Origin: Acidobacteriota bacterium
GTDB lineage: Bacteria > Acidobacteriota > Terriglobia > Acidiferrales > UBA7541
Direction of reading: 5' to 3'
Assembly: GCA_003224525.1 (NCBI GenBank)
Contig: QHZB01000177.1
Location: 1-61,462, forward strand
Length of the DNA: 61,462 nucleotides
In this document: positions 28,117 through 43,163 of the stretch, in pieces
Layout of the letters: every line of letters begins with the position of its first letter
Position numbering within the stretch: position 1 is the stretch's first letter
Made by a program: the position numbers and the translations under genes
Notes under the pieces: model-generated
What the model was told of the DNA's origin: nothing
Seen by the model: the letters and a program-made list of their open reading frames with translations, nothing else
The model's database searches: none

Positions 28117-28941
28117 ATGAACTTCCCCGTTTATCTCCATATCGGTTCTTTGCGACTGCACCCGCATTGGGCATTTGAAACACTCGCGTATGCCGTGGCG
28201 TTCCGGGGATATCTCTGGATGCGGCGCAAGAAGGAGGACGTGATCGATCCGGCCGATCGCTGGTGGGTGATCGCCGCGGCGACGATGGGTGCGGCCGTGG
28301 GGAGCAAGGTGCTCTACTGGTTCGAAACTCCTCGGCTGACGCTCCAACACCTCAGGGATCCCGCCTTTCTGCTGGGCGGAAAAACAATTGTCGGGGCGCT
28401 GATCGGCGCCTTAATGGCCGTGGAGTATACCAAGAAGCGTTTGGGGATTATTCGCCGGACGGGGGACTTGTTCGCGCTGCCGTTGTGCGTGGGGATAGCC
28501 ATTGGCCGCATCGGTTGCTTCTTGACGGGAATAGAGGATCACACCGCAGGCGTGGCAACTGCCTTGCCGTGGGGCGTGAATTTCGGCGACGGCGTCGCAC
28601 GTCATCCAACTCAGTTGTATGAGGTGCTCTTCGCATTGGCACTTGGCGCGTTCTTATGGCGGCAAATGCGGAAACCCCACCCCGAAGGCGACATTTTCAA
28701 GTTTTTCATGGTCGCGTACTTCGCGTTTCGCCTGTTGTGCGATTTCCTGAAGCCGGATGTGCGCGTCTTTCTGGCCTTGACCTCGATTCAGTGGGCCTGT
28801 GTCGCCATGCTGCTCTATTACCGTGGAGGTATCGTGCGCTGGATGCGCGCCACGAAGCCCGCAACACTAGCACGCTTGGCTACTCAGCTGGAAACTGCTC
28901 CCGCCGGTGGCAAGCGTAATCCTGCCCGAGGCCCTAGGTGA
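28117..28941 (+). CDS. Lgt-family membrane protein with altered catalytic motifs
   Basis: A multi-pass inner-membrane protein of 274 residues related to prolipoprotein diacylglyceryl transferase. The Lgt signature is recognisable as IGRIGCFLTG (129-138) and ARHPTQLYEVL (161-171). However, the Asn of GRIGN is Cys134 here, and the segment that in Lgt carries the essential His (HGGLIG) reads GGKTIVGALIGALM without His. Canonical acyltransfer to prolipoproteins is therefore doubtful, and a different lipid substrate is more likely. It is first in a run of four genes joined by stop-start overlaps, ending with a tetraether-synthase-like radical SAM gene. This context suggests membrane-lipid modification. 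Confidence 0.82.
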   Translation: MNFPVYLHIGSLRLHPHWAFETLAYAVAFRGYLWMRRKKEDVIDPADRWWVIAAATMGAAVGSKVLYWFETPRLTLQHLRDPAFLLGGKTIVGALIGALMAVEYTKKRLGIIRRTGDLFALPLCVGIAIGRIGCFLTGIEDHTAGVATALPWGVNFGDGVARHPTQLYEVLFALALGAFLWRQMRKPHPEGDIFKFFMVAYFAFRLLCDFLKPDVRVFLALTSIQWACVAMLLYYRGGIVRWMRATKPATLARLATQLETAPAGGKRNPARGPR

Positions 28942-29213
28942 TGACGACCCCTGCAAACTGGCAGCCCGCTCCTCCTCCGCCAAAGCGCTCTATCGTTAGA
29001 CCAATGGCGATGACTCTGGTGTCTAGTTTCTTGCTGGGGCTTGGTTCGTGCTTCGGGTTCTTGAGCACGCTCAATTTCAATGGCCCGAGTAAACCCGTCA
29101 ACACTCTATTTATGATCGGGTTCGGTGTAGGGCTGGTAGTGTTTCTCGGCGCGTGCGTATGGGCGGTAGTGGCGATGTTTGCGTATATGTTCAGTGGGCA
29201 CAAGGAGAAGTGA
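28941..29213 (+). CDS. Small two-TM membrane protein in the lipid operon
   Basis: No family recognised. About 90 residues: a polar Pro-rich N-terminus (TTPANWQPAPPPPKRS), two hydrophobic helices (MTLVSSFLLGLGSCFGFL; IGFGVGLVVFLGACVWAVVA) and a short basic tail. ATG 28941 overlaps the stop of the Lgt paralogue in TGATG, so translation is probably coupled. It resembles the next gene product in plan (Pro-rich start, two helices, basic end), suggesting a related pair. Confidence 0.7.
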   Translation: MTTPANWQPAPPPPKRSIVRPMAMTLVSSFLLGLGSCFGFLSTLNFNGPSKPVNTLFMIGFGVGLVVFLGACVWAVVAMFAYMFSGHKEK

Positions 29214-29518
29214 TGCCGGAGCGCGTGGCCATCGAGGAGCCGCCGCCTTTACCACCGGATAGCGGCCAGCTGAAGAGGAAATCCACATTCTGGCCGATCC
29301 TCGTCACCATCGTCGGGGGGATCGGTTTGGCATACGGTTCCTTTTATGCGGCGTGCTCTCCCGAGGCCCGAAATAGCGATTTTACCAGGGCGTTTGGATG
29401 GGCGCTCGGACCGGCCTTGCTCCTTGGCGTCCTCGCTGCATTGTTTGGAACGGTGTGGCTCATTATGGCCCTCCTCTTGCACGTGTTCTATTTCTTGAAG
29501 ACGAAGTCGAGGGACTAG
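29213..29518 (+). CDS. Second small two-TM membrane protein in the lipid operon
   Basis: No family recognised. 101 residues with a Pro-rich start (EEPPPLPPDSGQLKRKS), two hydrophobic helices (FWPILVTIVGGIGLAYGSFY; ALLLGVLAALFGTVWLIMAL) and a basic tail. The ATG at 29213 overlaps the stop of the previous gene in TGATG, with AAGGAG 6 bases upstream. The radical SAM gene starts at the very next base after its stop. Its place between an Lgt paralogue and a lipid-type radical SAM enzyme suggests a membrane partner for that pathway. Confidence 0.75.
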   Translation: MPERVAIEEPPPLPPDSGQLKRKSTFWPILVTIVGGIGLAYGSFYAACSPEARNSDFTRAFGWALGPALLLGVLAALFGTVWLIMALLLHVFYFLKTKSRD

Positions 29519-30979
29519 ATGACGGAACGAACCAGGCCGTACCTGTTTTATGACGTGGCCCTGACGATCTGCGCGACGTGTTTCCGCAAGCTGGAAGGGA
29601 AGATCGTTTTTCAGGATGACAAAGTGTTCCTGCTCAAGCGCTGCCCGGAACACGGAGCAGAGCGTGTGCTGGTGGCGGATGACGTGGACTATTACCGCCG
29701 ATGCCGCGAAGTTTTCATCAAGCGGCCGGAAATGCCGGTGCTGTACAACACCGCGGTGAAATGGGGCTGCCCTTACGATTGCGGGCTTTGCACGGATCAT
29801 GAGCAGCATTCTTGTCTGTCGCTCGTCGAGGTCACGGATTCTTGCAATCTGCGCTGTCCGGTGTGCTATGCGGCAAGCGGGCCGGAGCGTCTGGAGCATC
29901 GATCTCTGGCGCTGATCGAGAAAATGCTGGACGCCGTGGTGCGCAACGAAGGACGGCCCGATGTGGTGCAGATTTCGGGCGGAGAGCCGACGCTGCATCC
30001 GGACTTTTTCAAGATTATCGAAATGGCGAAGGCCAGGCCCATCCGGCACTTGATGGTGAATACCAATGGCGTGCGCATCGCCCAGGACGAAGAATTCGTC
30101 AAGCGCCTCGCGGAAATCGGGGATTTCGAAGTCTATCTCCAATTCGATTCGTTCGAACGCCACGCGCTGGTGGATTTGCGCGGCGCGGACTTGCGCAGCG
30201 TGCGGGAGAAGGCCTTGGAACGGCTGAACGCGCACGACATTTCGACCACGCTAGTAGTGACGTTGAAAAAAGGCTTGAATGATGGCGAGATCGGGAGGGT
30301 CATCGATTTTGCCCTGAGGCAGCCGTGCGTGCGCGGTGTAACGCTGCAGCCGATTCAGGATGCGGGCCGTTTGGAGAAGTTCAATCCTGCGGCCGACCGC
30401 CTGACGCTCACCGAAGTTCGCCAGAAAATTCTTGAACAAACAAATGTTTTCCGCCCGGAAGATGTGATTCCCGTGCCGTGCCATCCCGATGCGCTGGCCA
30501 TGGCTTACGCATTGAAGCTGGGCGGGAAAGTCGTGCCGCTTACGGGATTGGTCGAACCAGACGTCCTGATCAGCGGCGCGCGCAACACGATTGTCTATGA
30601 AGAGGAGCCGGGAATTCGGGATTGCCTGTTCAAACTGTTTGCGACGAATCACTCGCCGCAATCGGGTGCGGCGTCGCTGCGCGATTTGCTTTGCTGTCTG
30701 CCCCAGGTGTCGGCGCCAGCAGGGCTCACCTACAAAAATATTTTCCGCGTGTTGATCGTGCAGTTCCAGGACGCACACGCGTTCGATGTGCGCTCCGTGA
30801 AGAAAACCTGCATTCATATCGTCCATCCCGATGGCCGCCTGATTCCGTTTGATACCTACAATCTTTTCTATCGCGATGATCTCGAAAAAACGCGGCTGGC
30901 GCCGCTTCGCGCTCAGGTGCTACCGCAAGTCAGTGGCATGAGAATCTTGCCGGCCTCCGTTACCCACGCCAGCGACTAA
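29519..30979 (+). CDS. Radical SAM enzyme resembling the tetraether lipid synthase (Tes)
   Basis: The 486-residue protein follows the plan of archaeal Tes, which joins two lipid tails through a C-C bond between methyl ends. Metal sites in order: an N-terminal rubredoxin-like site (C18, C21, C42, with C62 or H45 nearby); CPYDCGLC (C84, C88, C91) with H94, an auxiliary-cluster motif; CNLRCPVC (C109, C113, C116), the radical SAM cluster; then SGGEPTLHPDF. The C-terminal half keeps LLCCLP and CIHIVHPDG, which hold the third cluster region in Tes-like proteins. In Acidobacteriota the natural product could be iso-diabolic acid, a membrane-spanning fatty acid; this is inference. It is the last gene of the coupled operon begun by the Lgt paralogue. 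Confidence 0.85.
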   Translation: MTERTRPYLFYDVALTICATCFRKLEGKIVFQDDKVFLLKRCPEHGAERVLVADDVDYYRRCREVFIKRPEMPVLYNTAVKWGCPYDCGLCTDHEQHSCLSLVEVTDSCNLRCPVCYAASGPERLEHRSLALIEKMLDAVVRNEGRPDVVQISGGEPTLHPDFFKIIEMAKARPIRHLMVNTNGVRIAQDEEFVKRLAEIGDFEVYLQFDSFERHALVDLRGADLRSVREKALERLNAHDISTTLVVTLKKGLNDGEIGRVIDFALRQPCVRGVTLQPIQDAGRLEKFNPAADRLTLTEVRQKILEQTNVFRPEDVIPVPCHPDALAMAYALKLGGKVVPLTGLVEPDVLISGARNTIVYEEEPGIRDCLFKLFATNHSPQSGAASLRDLLCCLPQVSAPAGLTYKNIFRVLIVQFQDAHAFDVRSVKKTCIHIVHPDGRLIPFDTYNLFYRDDLEKTRLAPLRAQVLPQVSGMRILPASVTHASD

Positions 30980-41632: not shown

Positions 41633-41951
41633 GTCCGACTCTAGGTTCTCCTGGACACTGAGAATACCCTGTGACGGCGAGGGAGGCAATTGTCCGCGGG
41701 GTTTGGCGAAGAGAGGCCGTATCCATGGAGGTACGGTGGAAAGGCTGAAAAGGAAAACGCACGGCGCAACGAACAAAAAGCGAAATTAGTGCTTGACTAA
41801 GCGAAGAAAAAGCGAAATACTGCCGCGTGCTTCGAGGTGGGCTATGTCTCCAGTTCACTCCCAACCGGCGCCGAGTTTTCGGTTTCGACGTCGGCGCGCT
41901 TCACCAACCACAGCAGAACTCTTTCCTGAGTGCCCCGATGTCATAAGCCCC
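41633..41951. other. Divergent intergenic region
   Basis: Lies between the PD40 gene (minus) and the SPL-like radical SAM gene (plus). The radical SAM frame is open back to 41793, so its true start may lie here. The stretch 41775-41815 is AT-rich and may hold promoters. Nothing else seen. Confidence 0.35.
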
Positions 41952-43163
41952 ATGCAAATGGTCCATGACCTTGCCCAGGTTGTTGACCAACGCGGCAGCA
42001 ATTCGAGTCAAGCGACGCCGGATTGCCCCCCGGCGTCCAGGACCCAGCACGGAACCCAAAACCGTGAATCAGATCCGGTTCGAATTGATGCCGCGGCGCC
42101 TCCTGAACGCGCTCACGCGCGGCTGGTTGGCATTGCCCGCCTCGCGGCATCGTCTCGACCGGCGGAGACGCGGCGAAATTCCGCAGAGCGGCCGGAGTAT
42201 TTTCTGCTGCCGGTGAAGTCGATCCTGAACCGGTGCGATTCGAACCGCGTGCCGTTCGAATGGACCATCAATCCTTACCGAGGATGCGAGTTTGCCTGCC
42301 AGTATTGCTACGCGCGGTACACGCACGAGTACATGGAGCTGGACGGGTCCGAGTTCGAGAAAAAGATTTATGTGAAGAAGGATGCGGCGCCTTTGCTGGC
42401 CCAGGATATTTCGCGCAAGTATTCCTACGCATCGGAGAGCTCGGGCGGCGAAAAGCCGGATCATATCGCCATTGGGACGGCCACGGACCCGTACCAGCCG
42501 GCGGAGAGGGAACACGGCGTGACGCGGGCGTGCCTCGAGGAATTGGCGAAGCGCGAGGGGCTGAGCATTTCGATCGTCACCAAATCGAATCAGATTGTGC
42601 GCGACATCGATGTGCTGAAGAAGATTGCCACGCGGTCCTCGCTGCAAATCGACATTACGGTGACGACGATGCGGCCGAGGCTGGCGCGAATGCTGGAGCC
42701 ACGCGCGCCGCGGCCAGACCTGCGGCTCGCGGCGGTGAAGGAATTGCACGAAGCGGGATTGGCCGTCGGAGTGTCGGCGTCGCCGTTGGTGCCGGGAATT
42801 ACGGACGGCGACGGCGAGCTTGAGGCCGTCGCGGCAGCTGCGAAGGAAGCGGGCGCGGAGTGGTTTTTTTCGGGAGTTCTGTTCTTGATGCCGTCCTCGG
42901 CGAAGCAGTTCTTACCGTTTGTGCGGGAGAAATTTCCGCGCCTGGCGAAGCAGTACGAGCAGTGGTACGCGAAGAATGGGTATGCACCGGAAGAGTACCG
43001 GCGCAAGGCCTCGGAGCGCGTGGCGTGGATTCGCAAGAAGCATGGATTTCGGTCGCGGCCGTGGGTGGAAATAAAACAAACATTGACGCGTTCGCAGTTG
43101 TCTTTGGGTTGGGACGGAGCGGCGCAAAAGATGGAACGAACGCAATCTTGCGCGGCGGGATAG
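41952..43163 (+). CDS. SPL-like radical SAM protein (PA0069/Rv2578c type)
   Basis: Radical SAM protein related in sequence to spore photoproduct lyase-like proteins of unknown substrate. The cluster motif is CEFACQYCYARYTHEYM (CxxxCxxC), preceded by VPFEWTINPYRG; then GTATDPYQPAE and the partial TIM-barrel (LSIVTKSN-like SISIVTKSNQIVRDID; VSASPLVPGITD). The C-terminal YGRR-like region of the family reads PEEYRRKASERVAW. ATG 41952 is one of several possible starts; the conserved part begins near 42190. Substrate unknown; DNA-repair-like action is only suggested by the family. Confidence 0.85.
   Translation: MQMVHDLAQVVDQRGSNSSQATPDCPPASRTQHGTQNRESDPVRIDAAAPPERAHARLVGIARLAASSRPAETRRNSAERPEYFLLPVKSILNRCDSNRVPFEWTINPYRGCEFACQYCYARYTHEYMELDGSEFEKKIYVKKDAAPLLAQDISRKYSYASESSGGEKPDHIAIGTATDPYQPAEREHGVTRACLEELAKREGLSISIVTKSNQIVRDIDVLKKIATRSSLQIDITVTTMRPRLARMLEPRAPRPDLRLAAVKELHEAGLAVGVSASPLVPGITDGDGELEAVAAAAKEAGAEWFFSGVLFLMPSSAKQFLPFVREKFPRLAKQYEQWYAKNGYAPEEYRRKASERVAWIRKKHGFRSRPWVEIKQTLTRSQLSLGWDGAAQKMERTQSCAAG

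Follow-up and report, generated by a model that had tools for sequence, protein, structure and literature searches.

A recurrent operon pairing an Lgt paralogue with a Tes-fold radical SAM enzyme in Acidobacteriota and other bacteria: a possible lipid-modification module

The window analyzed here is a 61,462-nucleotide stretch (contig QHZB01000177.1, assembly GCA_003224525.1) of an Acidobacteriota bacterium of the UBA7541 lineage, and the system in question is a run of four forward-strand genes at positions 28117-30979. Gene 1 (28117-28941) encodes a 274-residue paralogue of the prolipoprotein diacylglyceryl transferase Lgt (PF01790 LGT, E 2e-28). Genes 2 (28941-29213) and 3 (29213-29518) encode small proteins a (90 residues) and b (101 residues), each with two transmembrane (TM) segments, for which a Pfam search gave no trustworthy match. 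Gene 4 (29519-30979) encodes a 486-residue radical S-adenosylmethionine (SAM) enzyme related to tetraether synthase (Tes) and TrsS, whose cluster motif CxxxCxxC (C109-C116) occupies codons 29843-29866. Genes 1 and 2, and likewise 2 and 3, overlap by one nucleotide at TGATG, and the TAG of gene 3 abuts the ATG of gene 4 with no gap. Both small genes start with ATG; a GTG at 28938 is a possible alternative start for gene 2, while the mechanically assigned GTG at 29153 is unlikely for gene 3 because AAGGAG precedes its ATG at 29213. A promoter and terminator scan returned nothing exceeding shuffled sequence. The initial annotation had described a four-gene operon with overlapping or abutting junctions, and all of its reading frames and junctions are confirmed. 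We propose that the operon is best explained as an acidobacterial copy of a widespread, undescribed lipid-modification module.

The foundation of this view is the association of genes 1 and 4. Gene 4 orthologues, counting that of the window's own genome, occur in 22 of 396 genomes drawn from Acidobacteriota (at least 62% identity, above a sharp gap, the next best match being 40%), two of which have loci identical to those of named Vicinamibacteria and Thermoanaerobaculia. Within the window's genus they are present in 3 of 25 genomes, its own included. Further loci came from a pattern scan across genomes of named species, and the best 80 of at least 581 relatives are considered here; their enzymes share 58-77% identity with that of the window, and they derive from Acidobacteriota, Bacillota, Bacteroidota, Cyanobacteriota, Pseudomonadota, Planctomycetota and others, with Paenibacillus, Mucilaginibacter, Dyella, Collimonas and cyanobacteria among the carriers. 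A same-strand Lgt-like gene, detected with a hidden Markov model, lies near the enzyme in 74 of these 80 named loci, across 11 phyla as named by NCBI; in all 74 but two (L133, L157) it precedes the enzyme, and in 54 it is no more than 100 bases away. Two misses, L116 and L180, lack upstream sequence. One of the 80, L159, carries the pair in a metagenome-assembled genome of Candidatus Thalassarchaeaceae, reflecting either transfer or contamination. With the same model, the Lgt-like gene was found in 21 of 23 acidobacterial loci of the enzyme's clade, the misses being L086, at a contig edge, and L088, whose enzyme gene is apparently frameshifted; it is also present in 11 of 11 loci fetched after the idea of a small-protein cargo had formed, a set which leaves out L193, identical over 7428 bases to L112 (Paracidobacterium acidisoli). 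Tes/TrsS-like loci outside the clade have the Lgt-like gene in only 1 of 13 cases (L091), and L091 is sister to the clade in the tree, although its branch is very long and was flagged as unsure by the tree program. Clade support is an SH-aLRT (Shimodaira-Hasegawa-like approximate likelihood ratio test) value of 99, from a quick search without bootstrap.

Co-inheritance is also suggested by sequence divergence. Among 91 loci with both genes (mean pairwise identity 63%, minimum 51%), distances between Lgt-like proteins mirror those between the enzymes (r 0.78), a value matched in none of 1000 permutations, and the linkage between genes 1 and 4 exceeds chance by far. A wider conserved operon was considered and rejected, as the 23 acidobacterial loci and the window widely share only the Lgt-like gene and the enzyme, the next clusters spanning at most four loci. 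The further neighbor clusters among the 80 named loci comprise a family of small TM proteins (19 loci), ABC ATPases (12), proteins of the short-chain dehydrogenase/reductase type (8), and of the response-regulator type (7); the last three are promiscuous families, and local synteny seems to account for galE/galK-like genes in Paenibacillus and for a peptidase-like gene in Mucilaginibacter (all of these labels were assigned by eye). Given the pairing, the mirrored distances, and the promiscuous or syntenic nature of the other neighbors, the Lgt paralogue and the enzyme appear to move and evolve as a unit, which upholds and extends the initial proposal that the genes act as one functional unit. 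Only 2 of 72,556 plasmid records matched at E 1e-60, one being the module on a Persicobacter megaplasmid, so there is no clear sign of spread through known plasmids. Some lineages may be losing the module: in L088 (genome G271), the seemingly frameshifted copy has no Lgt-like neighbor, and in L089 (genome G123) the enzyme is a single open frame of 555 codons with inserted residues. No description of the gene pair surfaced among the open-licence papers listed.

The enzyme itself matches Radical_SAM (3e-26) and Zn_ribbon_HMPTM (4e-15) in Pfam. Its best NCBIfam models are TrsS (NF045646; 328.6 bits, cut-off 490) and then Tes (NF045702; 275.7 bits, cut-off 450), and since neither cut-off is reached, it belongs to neither family by those models. 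The nearest solved structure is the Methanocaldococcus jannaschii (Mj) Tes (7TOL, E 2e-66), and the AlphaFold2 model of gene 4 (mean predicted local distance difference test score, pLDDT, 84.7) matches 7TOL and 7TOM over its whole length, with TM-scores of 0.77 and 0.78. A rubredoxin-type site (C18/C21/C42/H45), an N-terminal iron-sulfur site (FeS-N; C84/C88/C91/H94), and the SAM cluster (C109/C113/C116), for which section 5 of PMC9433317 gives the Mj Tes ligands, are each kept in 102-104 of the 104 clade rows of the alignment. The C-terminal region departs from this pattern. The Tes C455 column holds Cys in 0 of 104 clade rows, with Ser, Thr or Ala instead; the C470 column likewise (Asp 84, Glu 20); and the Tyr459 column never holds Tyr (Ile 94, Phe 7, Met 3). 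At the C338 column, 44 of 104 rows have Cys, and at that of Met439, 64 have Met, 38 Val and 2 Ile; Lloyd et al. report that the Tes M439A variant remained active. We infer from conservation that C338, C455 and C470 are ligands of the Tes C-terminal cluster; the available passages on this site name Met439 and Tyr459 only. Cys occupies the C455 and C470 columns of Mj Tes, of the L012/L013 pair, of 11 of 13 TrsS/Tes-like rows, and of nearly all of the approximately eight rows of a longer Tes-like type that cover the region. Of the 13 TrsS/Tes-like rows, no more than 6 have Tyr at the Tyr459 column. Cysteines peculiar to the clade are C321 (103/104) and C392, C393 and C431 (104/104 each). Judged from alignment and model, the clade enzyme keeps the fold of Tes and has a changed metal site at its C-terminal end.

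Two other candidate identities were set aside: a selenoprotein, suggested by a TGA inside the match in L060 and L091 and by TrsS being the best named family, the TGA proving to be an ordinary gene-end stop; and phage defence, for which PADLOC gave generic viperin-type radical SAM matches only. Elsewhere in the window, the radical SAM family is matched once more (PF04055, E 2e-13, at 42267-42812), within an open frame of 457 codons at 41793-43163.

Likeness to Tes underlies the reading with which the initial annotation began, in which the operon makes membrane-spanning lipids (iso-diabolic acid or precursors of branched glycerol dialkyl glycerol tetraethers, GDGTs), the enzyme joining acyl tails as Tes does and the Lgt paralogue rearranging diacylglyceryl groups, so that its presence should track iso-diabolic acid. 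The structural match and the shared fold speak for such chemistry, and bacterial Tes homologues, acidobacterial ones included, were reported in 2022 and proposed for branched GDGTs (PMC8941075, PMC10087280), so that part of the reading was already in print. In the window's genus, where 3 of 25 genomes have the operon's enzyme, 23 of 25 have a different Tes-like match, which reaches approximately 27-30% identity along part of its length and mostly lies within open frames of 620-810 codons. Among 120 Acidobacteriaceae genomes of at least 95% completeness, from a family identified by way of genome G453 and its locus L193 and which we take to fall in subdivision 1, 114 have a Tes-like match at E 1e-18, yet only 14 have the window's type; in 74, the sole Tes-like match among those listed is of the longer type (E 4e-34 to 3e-26), and most of the few longer-type rows that cover the C-terminal region keep the Tes-type cysteines and tyrosine there. 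Iso-diabolic acid is widely reported from this family, and PMC13274423 puts its share at 20-40% of the fatty acids for 17 cultures from subdivisions 1 and 3, producer status coming from literature on other strains. The window's genome contains two more Tes-like radical SAM proteins, L002 (contig C411, 735 residues) and L003 (contig C321, 647 residues), and this longer type would provide better candidates for iso-diabolic acid synthesis. The module is also common to many unrelated bacteria, among them Paenibacillus, Mucilaginibacter, Dyella, Collimonas and cyanobacteria, from which iso-diabolic acid is to our knowledge unreported. With 14 of 120 Acidobacteriaceae carrying an enzyme whose C-terminal site is altered throughout, the operon is not supported as the general pathway to iso-diabolic acid or branched GDGTs, and the distribution check that the initial annotation proposed goes against it; we consider a role in making membrane-spanning lipids very unlikely.

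The Lgt paralogue scores 99.7 bits against PF01790 (cut-off 24.9) and 59.5 against TIGR00544 (cut-off 118.9), and its AlphaFold2 model (pLDDT 90.4) finds its best PDB match in 5AZB (E 5e-8) with a TM-score of only 0.57. The donor-site residues of Escherichia coli Lgt, R143, E202, Y235 and R239, are kept in gene 1 as R131, E169, Y201 and R205, and across the clade R143, Y235 and R239 are each retained in 96 of 97 rows and E202 in 93, as are G142 (96/97) and G145 (94/97). Three residues are replaced: Y26 by E21 (Glu in 91/97), H103 by V92 (Val, Ile or Leu in 96/97), and N146 by C134 (Cys in 96/97); G154 fell outside the comparison. According to Mao et al. (PMC4728403), the diacylglyceryl part of phosphatidylglycerol lies in a pocket with R143, E202, Y235 and R239, and the H103 motif is their proposed binding site for the lipobox peptide. 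On this basis, the paralogue seems to have retained donor binding and changed in how it recognizes its acceptor. However, H103 and N146 vary in other Lgt proteins too, according to PMC13251419, and in the other Lgt of the same genome (L008, contig C259), presumably the housekeeping enzyme and oddly divergent from that of E. coli, they are Phe and Cys, and Y235 is Thr, so the replacements in the paralogue alone prove little.

If acceptor recognition has changed, then the diacylglyceryl group might be passed to a small molecule or lipid headgroup, with the radical SAM enzyme altering the tails and the cysteine-bearing proteins serving as scaffold or redox subunits. Such free-lipid modification would accord with the loss of H103, with the nearly invariant charged residues peculiar to the paralogue (E21, E103, K106, D158, R162), and with loci that lack a cargo gene. 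We nonetheless regard it as unlikely, as H103 is replaced in the other Lgt proteins mentioned above, and the diversity of the candidate cargo, its tandem copies, and its replacement by lipoprotein-like proteins in some loci fit acceptors better than a fixed subunit.

These candidate cargo proteins, defined as directly adjacent proteins of 45-180 residues with at least two TM segments, adjoin the pair in 81 of 104 loci (111 proteins in total), which bears out and extends the earlier suggestion of small membrane proteins as partners. They fall into groups without detectable match among one another, and in 104 of the 111 a Cys lies within a helix or next to one. A single Cys column is conserved in 38 of 39 members of a downstream group with three TM segments (the exception, L158, ends at a contig end), in 14 of 14 members of a two-TM 'GLCG' group, in 9 of 9 of a 'GFSTC' group from Bacteroidota, mainly Mucilaginibacter, and in 4 of 5 of the 'SCFGF' group to which the window belongs, its own protein b being the exception. 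The remaining three groups of at least three members (3/3, 2/3 and 3/3) say little, as they contain near-copies (L080 = L120; L165, L171) or come from a single locus (L137). In the window, the conserved Cys37 of protein a (codon 29049-29051, forward strand) lies in 'GLGSCFGF' at the predicted outer end of the first TM segment; Cys48 of protein b (29354-29356, forward strand), in 'FYAACSPEA', is also predicted at the outer end of its first TM segment, four residues beyond the column conserved in the other four members of the group. By the positive-inside rule, a Cys is placed at an outer helix end in 86 of 100 proteins located between or downstream of the pair, the outer side being where Lgt normally attaches lipid. 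Eight of the 11 later-fetched loci have a small TM protein, with the Cys motif present in 8 of 8 by eye and in 7 of 8 by the charge rule (L196 fails); one of the eight is a 59-residue protein on the Persicobacter megaplasmid with the end TGICGSLLS. Inspection by eye further revealed lipoprotein-like open reading frames (ORFs) with a lipobox-like Cys in the cargo position of L145, L148 and L162, and TM proteins with Cys near helix ends in the unmatched new loci L187-L189, two of which hold the motif twice per protein; in L188 and L189, both from Acidobacteriaceae, several such proteins lie between Lgt and enzyme. No such protein immediately follows the enzyme in any of the 13 outside-clade loci, although in L091 small TM proteins lie farther along, one with SSCGW at its end.

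The cargo candidates are small, change fast and keep a single motif, at times with two or three of them in tandem, and in this they resemble precursor peptides of ribosomally synthesized and post-translationally modified peptides (RiPPs); RiPP-lipoprotein hybrids exist (PMC12636315). The enzyme, with its extra cysteines C392, C393 and C431, might accordingly place a RiPP-like thioether or C-C crosslink at the small-protein Cys, while the Lgt paralogue would lipidate the product or aid its export, as in DAG-RiPPs. We find this improbable, as the enzyme fold is Tes-like throughout, the conserved Cys is mostly predicted at the outer face, away from a cytosolic enzyme, and the most frequent extra neighbor, the ABC ATPase, reflects Mucilaginibacter synteny to a considerable extent (RiPP recognition domains and proteases were not searched for).

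Our favored explanation, to which we assign somewhat less than an even chance, is that the module is dedicated to lipidation: the Lgt paralogue would lipidate a cargo Cys, and the radical SAM enzyme would modify lipid tails. The paralogue would take diacylglyceryl from phosphatidylglycerol and attach it to the outer-face Cys of the cargo; the enzyme, on the cytosolic side, would abstract hydrogen from the tails of the donor or anchor lipid, and then alter or cross-link them. What would result is a chemically unusual lipid anchor on a small membrane protein, or in some genomes on an ordinary-looking lipoprotein. Acting on one and the same phospholipid from opposite faces of the membrane would explain why the two enzymes are found together. 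Sequence supports the pairing, the co-inheritance, the recurrent cysteine-bearing membrane proteins, the retained donor site, and the Tes fold with its altered C-terminal site.

Further support comes from position, as an ORF with an outer-end Cys lies downstream of the enzyme in 53 of 112 module loci, and in 8 of 426 control windows that follow other long mechanical ORFs (at least 250 codons, both strands) of the same loci, although the control-window ORFs are not all genes. That caveat and several other points weigh against dedicated lipidation. The loci share ancestry, so their counts are not independent, and four of the 80 named loci (L119, L123, L158, L178) lack the Lgt-like gene despite having room for it. 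Twenty-three of the 104 loci have no adjacent small TM protein. Across all adjacent positions, 90 of 112 loci pass the outer-Cys rule and 22 have no passing ORF, including Chloracidobacterium (L172) and its likely kin L085 and L087; in nine of these 22, a small TM protein does carry a Cys close to a helix and misses only the charge rule. An inner-end Cys occurs in 30 of the same 100 proteins (both can co-occur), and in a small control of only 19 ORFs an outer-end Cys was present in 9 and an inner-end Cys in 4. In the 'GLCG' group the residue preceding the Cys is mostly Leu, which does not make a canonical lipobox, and with the loss of Y26, H103 and N146, which E. coli Lgt needs, the acceptor could be something other than cysteine. 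The gene 4 model is least certain at 370-399, the site of C392 and C393, and that the enzyme acts on a lipid at all is something we infer.

A stronger form of dedicated lipidation can also be entertained, in which the module is a second, self-contained system: an internal, uncleaved outer-face Cys of tiny multi-pass proteins would be lipidated by the Lgt paralogue and the tails of that anchor then fused or rewritten by the radical SAM enzyme with its rebuilt metal site, possibly welding the protein to a membrane-spanning lipid. We consider this doubtful; if true, such self-contained lipidation with tail fusion would be a new kind of membrane protein modification, spanning about ten bacterial phyla. 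The putative lipidation system would be accessible to experiment, as the predicted modified residue is one named Cys in proteins of approximately 60-170 residues, and Paenibacillus, Mucilaginibacter and Paracidobacterium are module-bearing genera with isolates. More broadly, bacterial 'Tes homologues' comprise two or more branches, which differ in their metal sites and in their partners. Judged by the E 2e-66 of the window's enzyme against an archaeal Tes, the Lgt-linked branch would probably pass the 1e-50 limit used to list bacterial Tes homologues, so genome surveys concerned with palaeoclimate lipids may count the wrong gene.

Set beside known systems, gene 4 resembles Tes (GDGT-MAS; MJ0619; 7TOL, 7TOM; NF045702) in its whole-length fold and in the three N-terminal and SAM sites, and differs in the replacement of C455, C470 and Tyr459, in its sub-cut-off score, and in its tie to an Lgt paralogue. 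TrsS (NF045646) is its best-scoring named family, yet the score lies beneath the cut-off, and two related genes outside the clade, L093 and a Mycolicibacterium plasmid gene, which may be TrsS proper, adjoin a methyltransferase rather than an Lgt paralogue. The plasmid gene (L185; M. vanbaalenii, NZ_CP126902.1) also has CcdA and a disulfide oxidoreductase nearby, and L093 and L185 apparently represent a separate radical SAM system. The longer Tes-like proteins (approximately 700-750 residues) and Mss belong to the same superfamily, and L002, a possible Mss, shares the N-terminal zinc-ribbon domain; the longer proteins nevertheless form a separate tree branch, mostly retain the C-terminal cysteines and Tyr in the rows covering that region, and are common in Acidobacteriaceae, where the window's type is patchy. 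E. coli Lgt (5AZB; PF01790; TIGR00544) shares its overall fold and donor residues with the paralogue, which differs at Y26, H103 and N146, falls beneath the TIGR00544 cut-off, and coexists with a separate Lgt, L008. Finally, the DAG-RiPPs (PMC12636315) have in common with the module a metal-dependent modifying enzyme and the lipidation, here putative, of Cys in small gene-encoded proteins; they rely on the ubiquitous lipoprotein pathway and a multinuclear non-heme iron-dependent oxidative (MNIO) enzyme, whereas the module has a dedicated Lgt paralogue and a radical SAM enzyme of the Tes fold.

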